A stretch of 64,000 nucleotides of DNA from Rhizomicrobium sp. Its GTDB lineage: Bacteria; Pseudomonadota; Alphaproteobacteria; Micropepsales; Micropepsaceae. The position numbers were made by a program, and so were the translations under genes. Location of the stretch: contig JBBCGJ010000001.1 in NCBI GenBank assembly GCA_037200985.1, positions 558,001-622,000 on the forward strand. The letters run 5' to 3'. The notes under the pieces were generated by a model that saw only the letters and a program-made list of their open reading frames with translations, did not search any database and was not told where the DNA came from. Shown piece after piece: positions 11,151-62,204 of this stretch (positions within the stretch are counted from its first letter, which is position 1; every line of letters starts with the position of its first letter).

Positions 11151-11389
11151 GTTGACGATCGCGCCCGCGCGGCAACGGCGCGCGTTTTTCGGAGCGTTCG
11201 ATCGGCTGCTTATTCGCAAAAAGAATTTAAGGACGGCGGCAATCGCCTGTCCAGCCGCCATTGCGCGTGCGCGCGCACGGAGCGCCGTCTACGCAACGAT
11301 TTCGTGTCGCGGGGGGAAGCGGTTCGCGCATTGCAGCGAAGTATTGCGCGCAAAGTGCAGGATGCGGGCGCCGCCGCACCCGTCTTGCG

Positions 11390-14311
11390 TCAAAGTGCGA
11401 AGCGGATTTGCGCGCCGACCGACATCGACACCGGCGTATCGGGCGCGCTGGGCGGGTTCATGTCCAGCACGGCGAAGCCGTCGACCGCGCCGCGGCCTTC
11501 CAGCACCGGCACGTCATAGGTCGTTTCCATCCGATATTCGCGCTTGCCCGCGATGTTCCAGGTCTGGGTCACCGGGCCGAGCGTACCGCTCTGCCGGTCG
11601 ACGACCTGAAGCGAGGTGTAATTGAGCGCGCCGCTCTCGACATGCAGCGGCTGGGTCAGCGAGAAGCGCAGGCTGTCGTCTTCCGAAAGTACGCCCAGCT
11701 TCGTCGCGGCAAGCTCATAGGCGGTCGATTGCAGGCCGGCTTGCGACAGCGACAGGCTCGACACCGCCGATTGCGGTGCGTTGGTGCGCGCCAGCGTGCC
11801 GGAGCCCGAGACGGTCCATCCGTCCGACAGCGCGGCCGTCGCACCCAGCGTCGTGCCCTCGGTATGCGCGCCGCCGGCGAAGGCCAGCGCGCCGCTGCCC
11901 TGCGAGCCGAGCAGTCCGTCGTCCTCGGTCAGCTGCGTATAGCTGGCGTTGATCGTCAGGTCCCTTCCGAGCGCGTAGCTCAGCCCCGCGACCGACGCCG
12001 AGGCGCGCGCCGTCGCGAGCGGAAGCTCCTTGAGCGGGCCGAAGGTCGGATCGACATAGATGTGATCGTCGGACTTCTGGCTGAAGCCAAAATTCAGCTT
12101 GAGGTCGCGCGTCACGGAATACCCGCCGCTCGCATACATGCCGCCCGACGCGAAGCCGAGCACCGGATTGACGCCGCCGGTCGAGGGATCGAAATCGGAC
12201 CGCAGCGAGAAGGCGCCCGTCCCCATCATGGAATAAGCGGCGCTGCCTTCGCCCATGTGCAGCTCGATTCCCGCCTCGGGGTTGGACGCGACGAACTCGG
12301 CGTGGAACGGCCCTTCGCCGCGGTCGGTCTCGTCGGGTGTGGACTGCGTCGTCACGATGCCGAGTCGCCAGTCGCCCTGGGCGAGCTGGGTCGACTGCGA
12401 TTCGAAGGACAGCGAATTCTTGCCGTGCGCCCAATCGATCAGGCGCTGATAGAGATAGGTCTGGAACGGATTGCTGGTCCCGTTGACGTTCTGGTTCTTG
12501 CCGACGAGCAGGCTGCTCAAGGGGATCGTGAAGTCGCGATAGGTCGAGCCGATGGACTCGAAGGCGACCAGGAACGCGCCCTTCTGCTGCCACAGGTTGA
12601 GCTGGCCCGTATTCAGCACCGAATATTTGAGCGAGGTCGGCGACCAGGTCGGAAGCAGGAACGACGTCCCGACCGGCCGTCCGCTGTAGGTGAAGGGCTG
12701 GTAAATGGTGAGATCGTTGAAATCGAGCGGCGACTGCGACGCCTGGATGTCGAGCTTGCCCCAGCCATAGATCGGATCGACGCCTGGCGCGCCCAGATCG
12801 TCGGCCGACTGGAGGATGATCTGCACCGTCTCTTCCGCATGCTGCTGCAGCCACGGCCAGCGGTCCTGCAGGAGCGCGACGGCGCCCGTCACCAGCGGCG
12901 CGGCGAAGGAGGTTCCCGTCATGCGGGTGACGCCGCCGTGATTGTCGGACACCAGGATCAGTTCGCCGGGCGCGACCAGATAGCGGTATTTGAGCTTGTT
13001 CTGCTCCCGGCAGATGCCGTTGACCAGGATGCAGGATTCGCCCGGCGTGTTGGAGAACCAGGAGATCTGGTCGGTCGGACCGACGGAGCCGACCAGGAGA
13101 AGGTTGTCGGGCGCCTGGCCGCCGGTCCACGGCACGTTCGCGGTCTGCGTGATGCCGTCATTGCCCGCCGCCTTCACCAGGACAAGGTCGTGATTGCGGT
13201 TGCTGAGCTGCGGGCTGTTCAGGATCTTGGCCCAGTCGCTCGACAGCACGCTGCCCGGCACGCCGAGCGAGGCGTTCACGACATAGGCGCCCTTCTTGTA
13301 GAGCGTGTAGATGCCTTGGCTGACGTCCGCCCAGCTCGCGGTGCCGGTCTGGTCGAACGGGTTGTAGACCTCGACGGTGGAATTGGGCGCGATGCCCATG
13401 ATGGCCTGGCCGTCATGCTTGGCCGCGATCAGGCTGGCCACGGCGGCGCCGTGATCGTTGGAATAGTTCTGGTAGCCGCCGGCGAATATGAGGTTCGCGA
13501 CGCCGCTATTGTCGCTGGTGAAATTGGCGTCCAGCACGCCGATGACGGAGTTCGAGCCCAGGCCCTGGATCTGTGTCAGCGCCGGCGACCAGTGCACGGA
13601 GGCCATCCACCAGTCGACATGGTCGACCCCGGTATAGGACATCAGGCCGTCATACCAGTTGAGGAAGAACAGCGAGCGCGTATCGACGCTGGTGTTGGCC
13701 AGCGAATTGGGATCGTTGGGATCGATTCCGTATTTGGCGAACATCGGCGCGGCGAAGCCGTCGTAGAAATTCTTGCCGGTCGCCCGCTGCACGGCGGCGC
13801 CCCAGAAATTCGCGCTGGTGCCGACGAAGGCGTTCAACTGCTTCTGCAGGTTCGCATAGTTGTGCGCATTGCTGGACTGCAGCAGGTTCCAGGTCTGGTT
13901 GATGTCCCCCCATTGCGGACCGGCATTTTTCCAGAACGGCTGCACCGTTTTGAAGAAGCTGTTCCCGACGAAGGGATTCATGGTGCCCCAGAACGGATCG
14001 TTGCTCCCATAGAACGGGATGATCGTTCCGTAGAACGGCTGGATGTCGCCCCAGAAGGGCTGGATATCGCCCCAGAACGGGCTGATGTCGCCATAGAATG
14101 GGTTGATATCGCCATAGAACGGATTGATGTCGCCGTAGAACGGGTTGATATCGCCGTAGAACGGGTTGATCGAGCCGTAGAAGGGGTTGATGTCGCCGTA
14201 GAGCGGAGTGATCGGCCGGTCGGTCGCGGCCGCGCCGGTGTCCGCCAGGGCCCCGTGGCCGGCAAGCAGGCACCCGAACGCGGCGCCGGCAAATAGCCAT
14301 TTCCGAACCAT
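11390..14311 (-). CDS. S8 (subtilisin-like) serine protease with N-terminal heptapeptide repeats and a likely C-terminal autotransporter barrel
   Basis: A 973-residue secreted protein. Residues 1-23 form a Sec signal peptide ending in GALA. Residues 36-112 are eleven tandem units of the type PFYGDIN or PFWGDIQ. The peptidase domain spans about 230-550, with catalytic Asp261 (GVLDANF), His287 (YSNDHGAAVA), the oxyanion Asn near 384 (AAGNDG) and Ser468 (GTSFAAP). The last 250 or so residues are alternating, Gly-rich beta-strand sequence ending in QIRFAL. This resembles an outer-membrane beta-barrel, although the last residue is Leu rather than Phe. I infer surface exposure or self-export. It has its own upstream region and does not overlap its neighbours. 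Confidence 0.85.
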   Translation of the reverse strand: MVRKWLFAGAAFGCLLAGHGALADTGAAATDRPITPLYGDINPFYGSINPFYGDINPFYGDINPFYGDINPFYGDISPFWGDIQPFWGDIQPFYGTIIPFYGSNDPFWGTMNPFVGNSFFKTVQPFWKNAGPQWGDINQTWNLLQSSNAHNYANLQKQLNAFVGTSANFWGAAVQRATGKNFYDGFAAPMFAKYGIDPNDPNSLANTSVDTRSLFFLNWYDGLMSYTGVDHVDWWMASVHWSPALTQIQGLGSNSVIGVLDANFTSDNSGVANLIFAGGYQNYSNDHGAAVASLIAAKHDGQAIMGIAPNSTVEVYNPFDQTGTASWADVSQGIYTLYKKGAYVVNASLGVPGSVLSSDWAKILNSPQLSNRNHDLVLVKAAGNDGITQTANVPWTGGQAPDNLLLVGSVGPTDQISWFSNTPGESCILVNGICREQNKLKYRYLVAPGELILVSDNHGGVTRMTGTSFAAPLVTGAVALLQDRWPWLQQHAEETVQIILQSADDLGAPGVDPIYGWGKLDIQASQSPLDFNDLTIYQPFTYSGRPVGTSFLLPTWSPTSLKYSVLNTGQLNLWQQKGAFLVAFESIGSTYRDFTIPLSSLLVGKNQNVNGTSNPFQTYLYQRLIDWAHGKNSLSFESQSTQLAQGDWRLGIVTTQSTPDETDRGEGPFHAEFVASNPEAGIELHMGEGSAAYSMMGTGAFSLRSDFDPSTGGVNPVLGFASGGMYASGGYSVTRDLKLNFGFSQKSDDHIYVDPTFGPLKELPLATARASASVAGLSYALGRDLTINASYTQLTEDDGLLGSQGSGALAFAGGAHTEGTTLGATAALSDGWTVSGSGTLARTNAPQSAVSSLSLSQAGLQSTAYELAATKLGVLSEDDSLRFSLTQPLHVESGALNYTSLQVVDRQSGTLGPVTQTWNIAGKREYRMETTYDVPVLEGRGAVDGFAVLDMNPPSAPDTPVSMSVGAQIRFAL
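13976..14206 (-). repeat. tandem 21-bp coding repeat (eleven heptapeptide units)
   Basis: Eleven in-frame 21-base units encode P-[FL]-[YW]-G-[DST]-x-x, most often PFYGDIN, then PFWGDIQ, with diverged units at the end (PFYGTII, PFYGSND, PFWGTMN). The central copies are almost identical at DNA level, which indicates recent slippage or unequal exchange, while the outer copies have drifted. The aromatic/Gly/Asp pattern suggests a regular extended or beta-solenoid-like stalk just after the signal peptide. Confidence 0.92.
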
Positions 14312-14466: not shown

Positions 14467-16605
14467 CTAGGACGCGACCGCGGTTTGGTCCAGCCGGAAC
14501 GCGCCCAGAACCCGCTCCGCCGGCAGATGGACCCTTGCGATCGTGCCCTCGTCGACTTCGCTCATCAGCGTGAAGCGCCCGCCGTGCAAGCGGACGAGCG
14601 ACTTGACGATCGGCAGGCCCAGGCCGACGCCGCCATGCAGCCGGGCATAGGTGCTTTCCGCCTGTCCGAACGGTTCCATGACCGTGGCGAGCTTGTCCTC
14701 AGGGATTCCGACCCCGTTGTCGCGCACCACGACGTCCACGCCGTCTTCGACCCATTCCGTGCGGACGGCGATCGCGCCATCCCGGCCGGTGAACTTCACG
14801 GCGTTCGACAGCAGATTGACCAGGATCTGGCGCAGCCGCTTGTCGTCGCCGCGCACGCGGACGTTCCGGGCGCCGTCGTCCACCCGGATCGTCTTTCCGG
14901 CGGCGGCCGGGCTGCCTTCGATCTCGCTCACCGCGCTTTCCACGATCTCGCCGAGCAGCATCTCGTTTTCGGCGAGCGTGACGGTTCCCGCATCGATGCG
15001 CGCCATGTCAAGAATGTCGTTCAGGATGCCGAGCAGGTTCTGGCCGCTGACATTGATGTCGGCGGCATATTCCCTGAGCTTGGTTCCGGTGATCGCGCCA
15101 TGCGCCATCAGTTCCGAGAACCCGATGATCGCGTTCAGCGGGGTGCGCAGCTCGTGGCTCATATTGGCCAGGAAATGGCTCTTGGCGCGATTGGCCTCCT
15201 CGGCCGCCTCCATGGCGAGGCGCAGATGCTGCTCCACCTCATTGCGGCGCGCGATCTCGACGTCGCGCTCGGACAGGGTCCGCGTCAGCTCGACATTCTT
15301 CTGCGTGATCGCGGTGCGGTGGCGGCGCATCAGCAGGTGGCGCCAGCCGATCCAGAGCATCAGGATCACCACGCCCAGCAGTACCGCCGCGAAGGCCACG
15401 GTCTGCGTCGTGGCGCGCGATTCGCGCAGCGAGATGTCGCGCTTGAGCTGTTCGGACCGGAGGTGCTCGATCTCCAGCTGCTGCGTGGCGAAATCGAACT
15501 GCGCGCCCAGCAGCGCGAGGTTGGCGGATGCCGCGAGCGAGCCGCCCTGGTCGTTCAGCCGCTTGAAGGCCTCCAGATGCGCCAGGGCGAGCGGATAATT
15601 GCCCTGGGCGCGATAGACCTTGTAGGCGATCTCGTGCATGTCGCGGAACGGCGAGATCGTGGTCTTCAGGTCGATGCCGCGAAACGCCTTGTCGAGGTCG
15701 CGGGCCGCGAGTTCGGGCGCGCCGCGCTCGAAATCGATCTCGGCCTTGACGCCCCACACGAACGGGGCGGAGCCGCTTTCGTCGCCCCCGGTCAGAAGCC
15801 GGAGCGCCTGGTTCACCGTGTCCGTCGCGGCGCCGAAATTGTGCTGCTTGGCGTAGACCGCGGCGAGATTGGGCAGGATGCTCAGTTCGAGGAATTCGCT
15901 TTTGAGCTTGCGGCTGATGTCGAGCGCGCGCTGGAAATTCCCGACCGCCTCGTCGTAGCGGCCCATCTGCTGCAGGGCGAAGCCCAGATTGTTCGCGATG
16001 GACAGCTCGACCGCCGGATCGGCGGAATAGATGCGCTGGGCGTCGTTGTAGTAGCGGATCTCGCGCGCGAAATCGTGCGCCTCGTCGTAGATGCTCCCGA
16101 GCCCCTGGAGTGCGATCGACTGGCTGCGCGCCTCGCCGAGCCTGGCGAAGATGTCGTGCGCCTTCTGGAAGCTCTTCAGGGCATGGGCGACGTCGCCGCT
16201 GATGTCCGCGATGCGCGCGTCCGAGAGCGCGAGATCGCCGTCGAGCTTGGTGATTCTGTTGTCTTCGCTCGCGATCCTGATCGCCTTGTCGAGAATGACG
16301 CGGGCCTCGGCGACCTTGTTGAGCCGGGTAAGCGCCTCGGCCTCGAGCCACAGGCTCGTCGCGAGGCTCCTGTCCTGGTCGGGCGATACGGCGAGACGTT
16401 CGGCGATCGTTTCCGCGGCGTGCGCCTTTTGCAGGGCGGCATTGGGGTCCGCCATCATCGCCTTCTTGGCGGCCGCGATGAGGTCGTTATAGTCGGCAGG
16501 CTTCGCCATGGGCTTGATGCGCTCGGGACGGCCGCCATCGTCGGCGCGCGCGCCGGTCGCGCCGAGCAGGCAAAGCGTTAGGACTAGGCTAACCCTCTTT
16601 AACAT
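14467..16605 (-). CDS. TPR-containing membrane sensor histidine kinase
   Basis: A 712-residue kinase. Residues 1-21 look like a Sec signal peptide, and about 40-390 are TPR-like helical repeats, probably periplasmic. One membrane helix at 402-424 is followed by a coiled-coil linker at 430-475. The HisKA domain carries the phosphoacceptor H484 (SHELRTPLN). The HATPase has its N box near 597-604, G1 DNGVGI at 629-634, an F box EPFGQ, and G2 GVGLGLPI at 659-666. No receiver domain is fused and no response regulator is adjacent, so the partner is elsewhere. The TPR sensor arrangement suggests it senses a protein or peptide rather than a small ligand. Confidence 0.88.
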   Translation of the reverse strand: MLKRVSLVLTLCLLGATGARADDGGRPERIKPMAKPADYNDLIAAAKKAMMADPNAALQKAHAAETIAERLAVSPDQDRSLATSLWLEAEALTRLNKVAEARVILDKAIRIASEDNRITKLDGDLALSDARIADISGDVAHALKSFQKAHDIFARLGEARSQSIALQGLGSIYDEAHDFAREIRYYNDAQRIYSADPAVELSIANNLGFALQQMGRYDEAVGNFQRALDISRKLKSEFLELSILPNLAAVYAKQHNFGAATDTVNQALRLLTGGDESGSAPFVWGVKAEIDFERGAPELAARDLDKAFRGIDLKTTISPFRDMHEIAYKVYRAQGNYPLALAHLEAFKRLNDQGGSLAASANLALLGAQFDFATQQLEIEHLRSEQLKRDISLRESRATTQTVAFAAVLLGVVILMLWIGWRHLLMRRHRTAITQKNVELTRTLSERDVEIARRNEVEQHLRLAMEAAEEANRAKSHFLANMSHELRTPLNAIIGFSELMAHGAITGTKLREYAADINVSGQNLLGILNDILDMARIDAGTVTLAENEMLLGEIVESAVSEIEGSPAAAGKTIRVDDGARNVRVRGDDKRLRQILVNLLSNAVKFTGRDGAIAVRTEWVEDGVDVVVRDNGVGIPEDKLATVMEPFGQAESTYARLHGGVGLGLPIVKSLVRLHGGRFTLMSEVDEGTIARVHLPAERVLGAFRLDQTAVAS

Positions 16606-46323: not shown

Positions 46324-46647
46324 TCAGCCCTCCGGCTCGAGCACCACGGCGGTGCCATAGGCCACGATCTCGCTCATGGTCTGGCCGATCTCCGAGGAAT
46401 CGAAGCGCATCATCACCACCGCGTTGGCGCCCATCGCGGTCGCGTTGCGCACCATGCGGTCGATGGCCTGGCGTCGGGTCTCTTCCAGGAGCTGCGTATA
46501 TTCATGAATCTCGCCGCCGACGATCGAGCGCAGCCCGGCCATGATGTTTCCGCCGAGTCCTCGGGAACGGACCACCACGCCGAACACCTGGCCCAACACG
46601 GCCTTGGCACGCTGCCCGCGGACGTTTTCTGTCGTGGTCACCAGCAT
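46324..46647 (-). CDS. YbjQ/UPF0145 family protein (putative heavy-metal-binding)
   Basis: A 107-residue protein with the family hallmarks LVTTTENVRG, VRSRGLGGNIMAGLRSIVGGEI and ANAVVMMRFDSSEI. Members form homo-oligomeric rings and were annotated as heavy-metal-binding by structure; the physiological role is unknown. Length is standard. It is the first gene of a two-gene unit with the small membrane protein. Confidence 0.9.
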   Translation of the reverse strand: MLVTTTENVRGQRAKAVLGQVFGVVVRSRGLGGNIMAGLRSIVGGEIHEYTQLLEETRRQAIDRMVRNATAMGANAVVMMRFDSSEIGQTMSEIVAYGTAVVLEPEG

Positions 46648-60289: not shown

Positions 60290-61645
60290 ATGGAGGACGC
60301 AACGCAACGGTCGGCCAAGTGGAAAGAAACGGATATTAGGGCACTCTTCGATGAAGAAGGAGGCACGGTCGACTCCCGAATCTACACCGACCAGGATCTC
60401 TACGATCTCGAGATGGAGCGGTTATTCGGTCGCTCGTGGCTGTTCCTCGCCCACGAATCCCAATTCAAGAAAACGGGAGACTATTTCGCCACCTATATGG
60501 GCGACGATCCCGTCATAGTCGTCCGACAACAGGACGGCAGCATCAAGGCTTTTCTCAATCAATGCAGGCACCGCGGCATGCGCATCTGCCGCAACGATGG
60601 CGGGAATGCACGGGCATTTACGTGCCCCTACCACGGCTGGGCCTATGACATAGGCGGCAACCTGGTCAACGTGCCGATGGAGAAGGAAGCTTACGGCGCC
60701 GTCGACAAGCGCAAGTGGTCGGCCACGGCAGTGCCACGCGTGGAACACCACAAGGGACTGATCTTTGGCAACTGGGATGTAAACGCCCCGTCTCTTGCAG
60801 ACTATCTTGGCGAGGCGCGCTTCTACATGGACGCGATGCTCGATCGTGCCGAAGGCGGCACTGAGATGATCGGGGGCGTCATCAAGTGGGTCGTTCCCTG
60901 CAATTGGAAGCTCGCGGCGGAGCAGTTCTGCAGCGACATGTATCACGTATTCATTACACATGCCTCCGGTTTCATCGCGATGGCGCCCCCGGAAGCTCCA
61001 GCTGGCGGGCCTGGTCCCGTGCAAGAAGGCCTACAGTTCCGTGCTTCGTGGGGCGGTCATGGGTCCGGTCTCTTTATTGGCGCCGGCGGCTTTGAGCAGA
61101 TGGCCATGACCGCAGGTGTCGAAACCGCTGAGTATTGGTGTATCGACTCTGCGCCGGAAGCCGAGCGGCGGCTGGGGAGGTCGCGTGGTCGCGAGATGAA
61201 CGGCGCGCATATGACGGTCTTTCCGTCACTGTCCTTCCTTGCCGGCACCAACGCGGTGCGCGTTTGGCACCCGCGCGGTCCCAACGAGATCGAGATATGG
61301 GCGTTTACGCTTGTTGATGCTGCCGCTCCGGACAATGTGAAGGAGCAAGTTCGCCTCAGTGGCCAACGTGGCTTTGGACCATCGGGCATCTTTGAACAAG
61401 ATGACGGCGAGAATTGGGTCGAGGTTCAGCGCGTATTGCAAGGGCATCAGGCGCGCAAGACGCGCTTCAACGTACAGATGGGTCTTGGCAAAGGCGGGAT
61501 CGACGACGCTCGCTTTCCGGGCCGTCTCGGCTATGTCTACTCCGAGAATGCGGCGCGTGGCTTCTATGCCCATTGGCTACGCATGATGACAGAACCGAAT
61601 TGGTCGACCCTTGGCCCGACGCAGGTGAAGCATGCCGCAGAATAG
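60290..61645 (+). CDS. Rieske aromatic-ring-hydroxylating dioxygenase, alpha subunit
   Basis: A 451-residue catalytic subunit. The Rieske 2Fe-2S site is C92/H94 (CRH) and C112/H115 (CPYH). The bridging Asp216 and Fe ligands His219 and His224 lie in SDMYHVFITH, with a third carboxylate probably in EQDDGENW. The length matches naphthalene/biphenyl-type alpha subunits. I chose the ATG at 60290 with AAAGG upstream rather than the GTG at 60266. It adds both atoms of oxygen to an aromatic ring to give a cis-dihydrodiol. It is the first gene of a five-gene operon and overlaps the beta subunit by 14 bases. Confidence 0.94.
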   Translation: MEDATQRSAKWKETDIRALFDEEGGTVDSRIYTDQDLYDLEMERLFGRSWLFLAHESQFKKTGDYFATYMGDDPVIVVRQQDGSIKAFLNQCRHRGMRICRNDGGNARAFTCPYHGWAYDIGGNLVNVPMEKEAYGAVDKRKWSATAVPRVEHHKGLIFGNWDVNAPSLADYLGEARFYMDAMLDRAEGGTEMIGGVIKWVVPCNWKLAAEQFCSDMYHVFITHASGFIAMAPPEAPAGGPGPVQEGLQFRASWGGHGSGLFIGAGGFEQMAMTAGVETAEYWCIDSAPEAERRLGRSRGREMNGAHMTVFPSLSFLAGTNAVRVWHPRGPNEIEIWAFTLVDAAAPDNVKEQVRLSGQRGFGPSGIFEQDDGENWVEVQRVLQGHQARKTRFNVQMGLGKGGIDDARFPGRLGYVYSENAARGFYAHWLRMMTEPNWSTLGPTQVKHAAE

Positions 61646-62204
61646 CCCCCGAGCGGCCGGCGTCGAGTTGCAGCCGAACAGCCCGCAGATAGTTGGCGTC
61701 GAGTTGCAGCACGAAATCGAGCAATTCCTTTACCGTGAAGCGGCGCTTCTCGACAACCGGCGTTTCGAGGAGTGGTTGGACGTACTCGCCGAGGATATTC
61801 GCTATTACATGCCTCTTCGCACGAATCGTTCGCGGCGAGAACAGTCGCTTGAATACTCAAGCGAGCATGAGAGCAGCTATTTCGACGAGGACAAACGCAT
61901 GATGAACGTGCGTGTCAAGAAGCTCCGATCGGAGTTCGGCTGGTCGGAGGATCCGCCGTCACGCACGCGGCACCTCGTCAGCAATGTCCAGATCGAACCA
62001 AATGTGGATGGCGAGTCATTCGCCATAACAGCGGCCGTCTTGGTGTATCGGAATCGTGCCGAGCGCACCGTCGATATCATATCGGGTGAAAGACGGGACG
62101 TTTTGCGTCGGGCAAACAATGCATTGGGCTTCGAGATCGCCTCCCGTACTTTCCTGATCGATCAGTCGACCGTGCTCGCATACAACATCAGCTTCTTCCT
62201 TTGA
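61632..62204 (+). CDS. aromatic-ring-hydroxylating dioxygenase, beta subunit
   Basis: A 190-residue structural subunit with an NTF2-like fold. It runs from HEIEQFLYREAALLDNRRFEEWLDVLAEDIRYYMPLR to the C-terminal ASRTFLIDQSTVLAYNISFFL, the family's usual start and end. It forms alpha3beta3 hexamers with the preceding subunit. The N-terminal extension of about 25 residues is unusual and contains a 12-codon-spaced duplication (GVELQ twice). The start lies inside the alpha gene, so the two are translationally coupled. Confidence 0.92.
   Translation: MPQNSPRAAGVELQPNSPQIVGVELQHEIEQFLYREAALLDNRRFEEWLDVLAEDIRYYMPLRTNRSRREQSLEYSSEHESSYFDEDKRMMNVRVKKLRSEFGWSEDPPSRTRHLVSNVQIEPNVDGESFAITAAVLVYRNRAERTVDIISGERRDVLRRANNALGFEIASRTFLIDQSTVLAYNISFFL
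61659..61710 (+). repeat. 36-bp-spaced direct repeat in the beta-subunit N-terminus
   Basis: The 16-base block GGCGTCGAGTTGCAGC occurs at 61659-61674 and again at 61695-61710, exactly 36 bases apart and in frame. The protein therefore repeats GVELQ. It looks like a recent in-frame duplication that lengthens the N-terminus. Confidence 0.8.

Follow-up and report, generated by a model that had tools for sequence, protein, structure and literature searches.

Several described systems resemble parts of the locus analyzed here, a 64,000-nucleotide stretch of Rhizomicrobium sp. DNA (the window) in which a subtilase bearing a tail of seven-residue repeats is encoded next to a tetratricopeptide repeat (TPR) histidine kinase. 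The protease shares with peptidase family S8 (PF00082) the catalytic domain and its invariant Asp, His, Asn, and Ser, whereas its heptad array, helical region, and beta-rich C terminus fall outside the family model. SprP of Pseudomonas aeruginosa is likewise a signal-peptide subtilase with an uncharacterized N-terminal part, and deleting it favors aggregation and biofilm formation and eliminates motility; it differs by its N-terminal 233-residue domain, found mostly in Pseudomonas, its total of 590 residues, and a C-terminal extension (PMC3937732). Autotransporter subtilases, represented in NCBIfam by EprS and fusolisin, also combine a signal peptide, an S8 domain, and a beta-rich C terminus, but the C terminus of the heptad-tailed family is not PF03797. 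Among 41 aligned members of this family, 31 match the EprS model and nine the fusolisin model. The EprS match of the window protein reaches 33 bits against a cut-off of 1700 and covers the protease domain only.

On the sensing side, RRNPPA receptors carry TPRs and act inside Bacillota cells, where a cytoplasmic TPR receptor awaits re-imported peptide. LapD-type receptors of cyclic di-GMP (c-di-GMP) have degenerate GGDEF–EAL domains, and the LapG-type protease is not a subtilase. RRNPPA systems such as Rap–Phr resemble our locus in joining tandem short peptides to extracellular proteases (PMC11343458); here, in contrast, the TPR sits on an envelope transducer and the repeats are part of the protease itself. 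RcbA–RcbB of Vibrio vulnificus provides a TPR–GGDEF enzyme gated by its operon partner. There, a TPR is joined to a c-di-GMP domain under operon-partner control, although that partner is another TPR protein and no protease is involved (PMC12282931). LapD–LapG and DvhD–DvhG pair a c-di-GMP receptor with a protease, and DvhD differs in its folds, dCache and HD-GYP (PMC13090378).

A protease gene and its recurrent neighbor

The features of the window on which the comparison rests are the following.

11390-14311, minus strand: heptad-tailed subtilase gene, 973 residues (open reading frame, PF00082 match, homologs)
13976-14206, minus strand: heptad array of 11 units, residues 36-112 (Tandem Repeats Finder, lag-7 shuffle test)
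14467-16605, minus strand: TPR histidine kinase partner gene, 712 residues (Pfam, adjacency in relatives)
15433-16500, minus strand: TPR ectodomain of the partner, 356 residues
14515-15186, minus strand: partner HisKA and HATPase_c domains at residues 474-697 (Pfam)

Among 61 genomes close to that of the window, 13 contain a match to the protease at E 0.001, and in six of them, counting the window's own genome, the match is long. A contig scan with array-derived patterns yielded 47 loci (L026-L072) in Maricaulis, Erythrobacter, Parvularcula, Euryhalocaulis, and other genera, in addition to 31 pattern stretches, outside those loci, that have no confirmed relative. Because these loci were retrieved via array peptides, the array is present in them by construction, and its generality rests on the sets found without it.

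In 38 of the 47 loci, a relative of the TPR gene adjoins the S8 gene on the same strand. Six of the remaining nine are cut by contig ends (L045, L049, L066, L069, L071, and L072). Judged by contig name, L071 and L072 share one assembly, so eight genomes stand behind the nine loci. Seven of these genomes possess a TPR gene, with an S8 copy beside it in six; in the seventh, G572, the TPR gene lies near a contig end and the S8 C terminus was not found. At L064, from a metagenome bin, one frame runs from the array and S8 N terminus into kinase and receiver parts. This frame (L064:5905-7434, Caulobacteraceae bin) includes the ATPase part and could have arisen as a chimera during assembly or through a genuine deletion that fused both module genes.

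When the window's RND, HlyD, TPR kinase, beta-lactamase, and GMC neighbors were used as queries, the TPR kinase alone recurred: RND gave a single match, at 23% identity, and the HlyD, beta-lactamase, and GMC queries gave none at E 1e-8. Relative to the protease gene, the TPR gene is upstream in members of the window's clade and downstream in the majority of the other loci; in G426 and G457, the two genes are divergent. Thus, adjacency has outlived rearrangement. Because the usual neighbor of the protease gene is an envelope sensor gene of a single kind, a signaling pair is the probable reading, and we are highly confident that their pairing is functional. Erythrobacter sp. YT30 (L053:2-11494) carries both module types in tandem, in the order S8, TPR kinase, receiver, S8, TPR–GGDEF–EAL, and one metagenome bin (L060:4321-11763) has a four-gene row of EAL, S8, TPR kinase, and receiver.

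Co-occurrence was assessed with profiles independent of the array. In the 149 genomes of the G390 family, the S8 C-terminal profile (A4) matched 14 at E 1e-15, and one weak match (G469, 60 bits) was dropped. Of these genomes, 14 carry the TPR gene, 13 the S8 gene, and 13 both, an association (Fisher p = 8e-18) that is uncorrected for shared descent. Both genes lie on one contig in 10 of the 13 genomes; the exceptions are G425, G551, and G478, and in the last of these the only S8 sequence on the contig of the TPR gene is a fragment some 9 kb distant. When 385 genomes of the class were searched with the TPR ectodomain profile at E 1e-20, six were found, four of which have a recognizable S8 member (G000, G180, G390, and G354, the last with stops in the matched C-terminal part). 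The TPR gene of G152 begins where a contig ends, and the C-terminal match inspected in that genome belongs to a subtilase that has no heptads. The second Fisher value of the co-occurrence analysis, likewise uncorrected for descent, is 2e-8. At E 1e-5, the C-terminal profile extends to 63 of the 385 genomes, mostly through weak, second-half matches in other proteins.

The partners are TPR signal transducers, with TPR and output domain on a single chain. Pfam finds TPR_12 in all 37 partners scanned, EAL in 25, GGDEF in 15, HisKA in 12, HATPase in 12, and a receiver in five; the GGDEF-bearing partners all belong to the 25 that end in EAL, and the other 12 end in a histidine kinase. The length of the TPR ectodomain is 349-356 residues in all but one of 37 rows; the exception has a late start call. 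Partners begin signal-peptide-like, and a hydrophobic stretch at residue 387-437 follows in 36 of 41 rows. These features, called by a simple rule, speak against a cytoplasmic receptor of the RRNPPA type. EAL signatures are present by pattern in 24 of the 25, and the 25th, shortened by its start call, shows its motifs on inspection. Judged by these motifs, the domains look catalytic rather than degenerate. A LapD-type receptor was set aside on these signatures and on the presence of HisKA instead in 12 of 37 partners. All 15 TPR-kinase loci (14 from the G390 family, plus G047) have a receiver-only gene adjoining the kinase, and a stand-alone EAL open frame lies in the surroundings of six of the 15 kinases (raw count), with three such frames matching the fused EAL at E about 1e-100. 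Functions that are fused in one partner type are, in the other, distributed across separate genes, which points to c-di-GMP output in many lineages.

The heptad array and the protease that carries it

The remaining parts of the protease are arranged around the array as follows.

14243-14311, minus strand: signal peptide, roughly residues 1-23 (assigned by eye from the sequence)
13964-13975, minus strand: broken last unit PFVG, residues 113-116 (register from lag-7 analysis and sequence)
13562-13963, minus strand: conserved, mostly helical region, residues 117-250 (alignment, predicted helices)
12758-13471, minus strand: subtilase domain, residues 281-518 (PF00082; subtilisin fold match over residues 229-527)
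11393-12721, minus strand: beta-rich C-terminal region, residues 531-973, a possible outer-membrane barrel (predicted strands)

The protein therefore reads signal peptide, heptad array, helical region, subtilase, and beta-rich C terminus. An earlier sequence-only reading had placed eleven units after the signal peptide of a subtilase, and both its coordinates and its register are exact: the array spans 231 bases, or 11 x 21, as in-register heptads at codons 36-112 of the open reading frame 14311-11390, with a 12-residue spacer separating it from the signal peptide. The units are, in order, PLYGDIN, PFYGSIN, three of PFYGDIN, PFYGDIS, two of PFWGDIQ, PFYGTII, PFYGSND, and PFWGTMN. Tandem Repeats Finder reports period 21 with score 210 at 14010-14206. 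Residues match at lag 7 in 54 of 70 positions, against a mean of 6.8 and a maximum of 20 in 20,000 segment shuffles; in 1,000 whole-protein shuffles, the best lag-7 window does not exceed 20, compared with 55 observed. The periodicity is not due to chance. RTX calcium-binding repeats were considered and rejected, as the array has period 7 whereas RTX is a G- and D-rich nonapeptide repeat (PMC3034196).

The same reading had called the 21-bp units near-identical and recently expanded. The first description holds for the three PFYGDIN units, which share 0.86-0.95 of their DNA among themselves; over all pairs, identity ranges from 0.52 to 0.95 with a mean of 0.73, so "near-identical" overstates the likeness. 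Recent expansion is upheld in part: the length change between the window and its sister species lies among the first, N-terminal units, the later units line up, and 71 of 77 aligned array residues agree. Copy number does vary among relatives, as had been suggested for strains: the sister-genome protein, 91% identical to the window's, carries one extra unit, and counts run from about 5 to 29 with a median of 11 over 55 genes (by pattern, good to a unit or two, with seven cut or aberrant rows dropped). The contigs of L066, L069, L070, L071, and L072 end in or near the array; assemblies thus seem to break there, and copy numbers may be misjudged. The longest array observed, about 27-29 units, belongs to the Euryhalocaulis copy beside a TPR gene (L197:847-4185), and the unpaired second Euryhalocaulis copy (L030) has about 15. 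In L042, Y and W units alternate through much of the first half, forming a 14-residue super-repeat.

The pattern of the aligned units is P/A-F-x-G-D/N-I-x, where x is mostly Y, W, H, R, T, S, A, or F. Even distant lineages retain the period of seven residues together with the G and I positions, and alignment gaps in the array are mostly whole heptads. Wording is lineage specific (PFYGNIA, PLYGNVS, PFYGNLR, PFYGKIA, PFWGDIQ, PFWGEIN, and AWYGNIN). Among genes found by the C terminus alone, 17 have a visible N-terminal part, and a heptad block is present in 14 of these. All three exceptions are additional S8 copies from a single genome, G478 (L136, L137, and L138), whose only TPR match is on a different contig from any of them. 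The array marks an alphaproteobacterial S8 family; it is a retained feature whose units seem to be re-homogenized within lineages. Homologs carry it with neither a fixed length nor a known function, the opposite of the conserved domain that the sequence-only reading had named as its own refutation. Rather, the repeat forms a linear-motif-like tail of variable length, borne by a protease of a known class.

Used as a query in the 385 genomes, the array matches seven, of which the strong four (G000, G354, G180, and G390) are the S8 family. The weak matches (G217, G160, G128, and extra places in G000, G180, and G390) look unrelated or antisense; those of G217, G160, and G128 and one in G180 were read individually. 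That of G160 (L210:1447-1698, minus strand) is an 84-residue open frame that contains four TFWGDLS-like units and has no link to S8. Five plasmid records gave weak array matches, and the phage matches, in 34 records, are partial subtilase matches among those listed.

Since the PF00082 match starts at residue 281, the conserved helical region separates the array from the protease domain. The window protein scores 115.8 bits against a family cut-off of 21.8 and is thus an S8 peptidase, and all 41 members match PF00082 at E 0.1. D261, H287, N384, and S468, which we take to be the Asp–His–Ser triad and oxyanion Asn, are invariant across the 41, and because of this invariance the enzyme is likely an active protease. 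An AlphaFold2 full-length model (41 sequences; mean predicted local distance difference test score, pLDDT, 77; predicted template modeling score, pTM, 0.69) places the protease domain on subtilisins with Z 33.6 and a root-mean-square deviation of 2.2 over 258 residues (VIA-align). The fold matches listed cover the protease domain only, and the VIA-align matches among them are subtilisins; the absence of barrels there carries no weight. For residues 1-118, array included, pLDDT is below 50, and a 236-residue L042 stretch of about 25 units, folded alone, gave a low-confidence helix (pTM 0.18) that we take for an artefact. Neither model yields a confident fold for the array, and the suggestion that it could be modeled as a solenoid is left unsupported, though low confidence of this kind is not evidence against one.

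From residue 725 onward, about 12-13 strands are predicted, with the look of an outer-membrane barrel. A classical type Va autotransporter barrel found no support: PF03797 is absent from the Pfam families matched by the 41 members at E 0.1, and hhalign of the C-terminal region against 21 PF03797 barrels from relatives returns a probability of 2.6. The C-terminal profile finds nothing among PDB sequences at E 5. It also reaches other S8 proteins, and PF00082 is the sole Pfam match of the twelve of these that were scanned. Among the Pfam matches of the 41 members, none is to a convincing adhesion or metal-binding family; PA2201_N (4 of 41, best 0.0029), Adeno_shaft (4 of 41, best 0.04), and BBP2 and a copper-binding family (one member each) were deemed chance matches.

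Three further observations concern the window at large. A 1011-residue open frame antisense to the protease gene (11261-14296, plus strand) is probably a G+C-rich shadow frame rather than a gene, and two other short tandem repeats occur at 46420-46462 and 61633-61715, with periods 20 and 36.

How the pair could work

Our proposal is that the protease and the sensor constitute one module. The C-terminal region would be a barrel that holds or exports the protease, which is probably anchored in the outer membrane with the array as its N-terminal tail. The TPR domain would face the periplasm and read the protease through its aromatic-acidic heptads, a multivalent linear-motif tail. Such reading would report the level, export, or activity of the protease. 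The output would be phosphotransfer, ending in many lineages in c-di-GMP breakdown and hence affecting attachment or motility. Because the heptads are aromatic, mostly acidic, and repeated, they are a natural candidate ligand, tethered or released. Kinesin light chain is among the solved TPR structures that the TPR profile matches, and the TPRs of kinesin light chains bind Y- and W-acidic peptides (PMC6214655). We put forward the heptads as the TPR ligand tentatively, at somewhat less than an even chance, and hold the whole chain, from outer-membrane protease to periplasmic sensor, to be plausible without being probable.

Further evidence comes from unit wording, which tracks TPR divergence beyond that of the catalytic domain (partial Mantel 0.39, p 0.0005, 49 pairs). 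The set omits L059, L035, and L070 by design, L029 and L039 (TPR genes cut), the second system of L053, and all copies with no visible partner; for G425, G551, and G180, the two genes were taken from separate pieces. With the TPR held, wording tracks the C-terminal region too (partial Mantel 0.34, p 0.0005). As the C-terminal region does nearly as well as the TPR, the signal is not decisive, and we do not count it as proof.

That second correlation is one of several points that weigh against our proposal. TPR systems occur for which no S8 partner was detected: in G497, no S8 member was found in the 149-genome search, and in G047, the C-terminal S8 profile was unmatched in the 385-genome search. 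Conversely, L030 and L042 retain the array with full flanks that contain no TPR gene, and G566, the source of L064, has an array-bearing open frame and matches neither the TPR nor the S8 profile. The window's own clade shows the kinase only, and neither a receiver nor an EAL gene flanks the pair. A simple hydrophobicity rule was used to call signal peptides and transmembrane stretches. Lastly, the structures matched by the TPR profile are led by designed TPR proteins, followed by Pins, O-GlcNAc transferase, LGN, and kinesin light chains, so the kinesin light chain matches come in the company of many other TPR proteins.

The array could instead be a plain flexible tail, serving as a spacer, in surface adhesion, or as an export aid, while the TPR reads another part of the protease or peptides that the enzyme releases from other substrates. 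The low predicted order of the array, its wide spread of copy numbers, and its retention in orphan copies all fit, and aromatic-rich units would suit surface sticking. We judge this unlikely, if still a serious contender, since a regular seven-residue spacing with G and I positions kept in distant lineages exceeds what a spacer needs.

Control could also run from the inside out. Specifically, the cytoplasmic state of the transducer, whether phosphorylation or c-di-GMP turnover, acting via the TPR, would hold, export, or release the protease, much as in LapD–LapG, and the array would be a docking handle. Adjacency and co-occurrence fit this arrangement equally, c-di-GMP domains occur on most partners (25 of 37), and a c-di-GMP receptor governing a protease is known, with other folds (PMC13090378). 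Against it, the EAL signatures seem catalytic in 24 of 25 by pattern, and the 12 of 37 partners that are kinases, many with a receiver gene or domain, suit sensing over output. We consider inside-out control rather unlikely.

A third notion is that the subtilase frees its own heptads and the periplasmic TPR domain senses them as peptide signals. Tandem units on the protease's own chain, a TPR partner, and lineage-specific wording are what such a system would display, and tandem pheromone precursors are cut by extracellular proteases in RRNPPA systems (PMC11343458). We find this improbable: the cleavage site and the free peptide are purely hypothetical, the units are continuous with no obvious linker, and three G478 S8 copies lack regular heptads. 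Finally, that the two genes are merely inherited together, with no joint function, is very improbable; both are patchy and common to related genomes, and the Fisher test ignores descent, but their adjacency persists through gene-order changes and the other window neighbors fail to recur.

Were the released-peptide notion true, the system would be a Gram-negative envelope counterpart of RRNPPA signaling, in which the different unit wordings would serve as dialects of species and the output would be phosphotransfer or c-di-GMP. Returning to the module in which the sensor reads the protease's tail, we found no description of a repeat-tailed subtilase joined to a TPR transducer with exchangeable kinase and c-di-GMP outputs in the literature searched, a body that leaves out most subscription journals. 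Subtilases, TPR sensors, and c-di-GMP enzymes are each familiar; what appears new, on that search, is their joining in one conserved module. The module suggests a specific candidate ligand for TPR sensors of the envelope, together with a natural series of heptad wordings with which to probe it, and because it is present in cultured genera (Maricaulis, Erythrobacter, Parvularcula, and Euryhalocaulis), the idea is testable.

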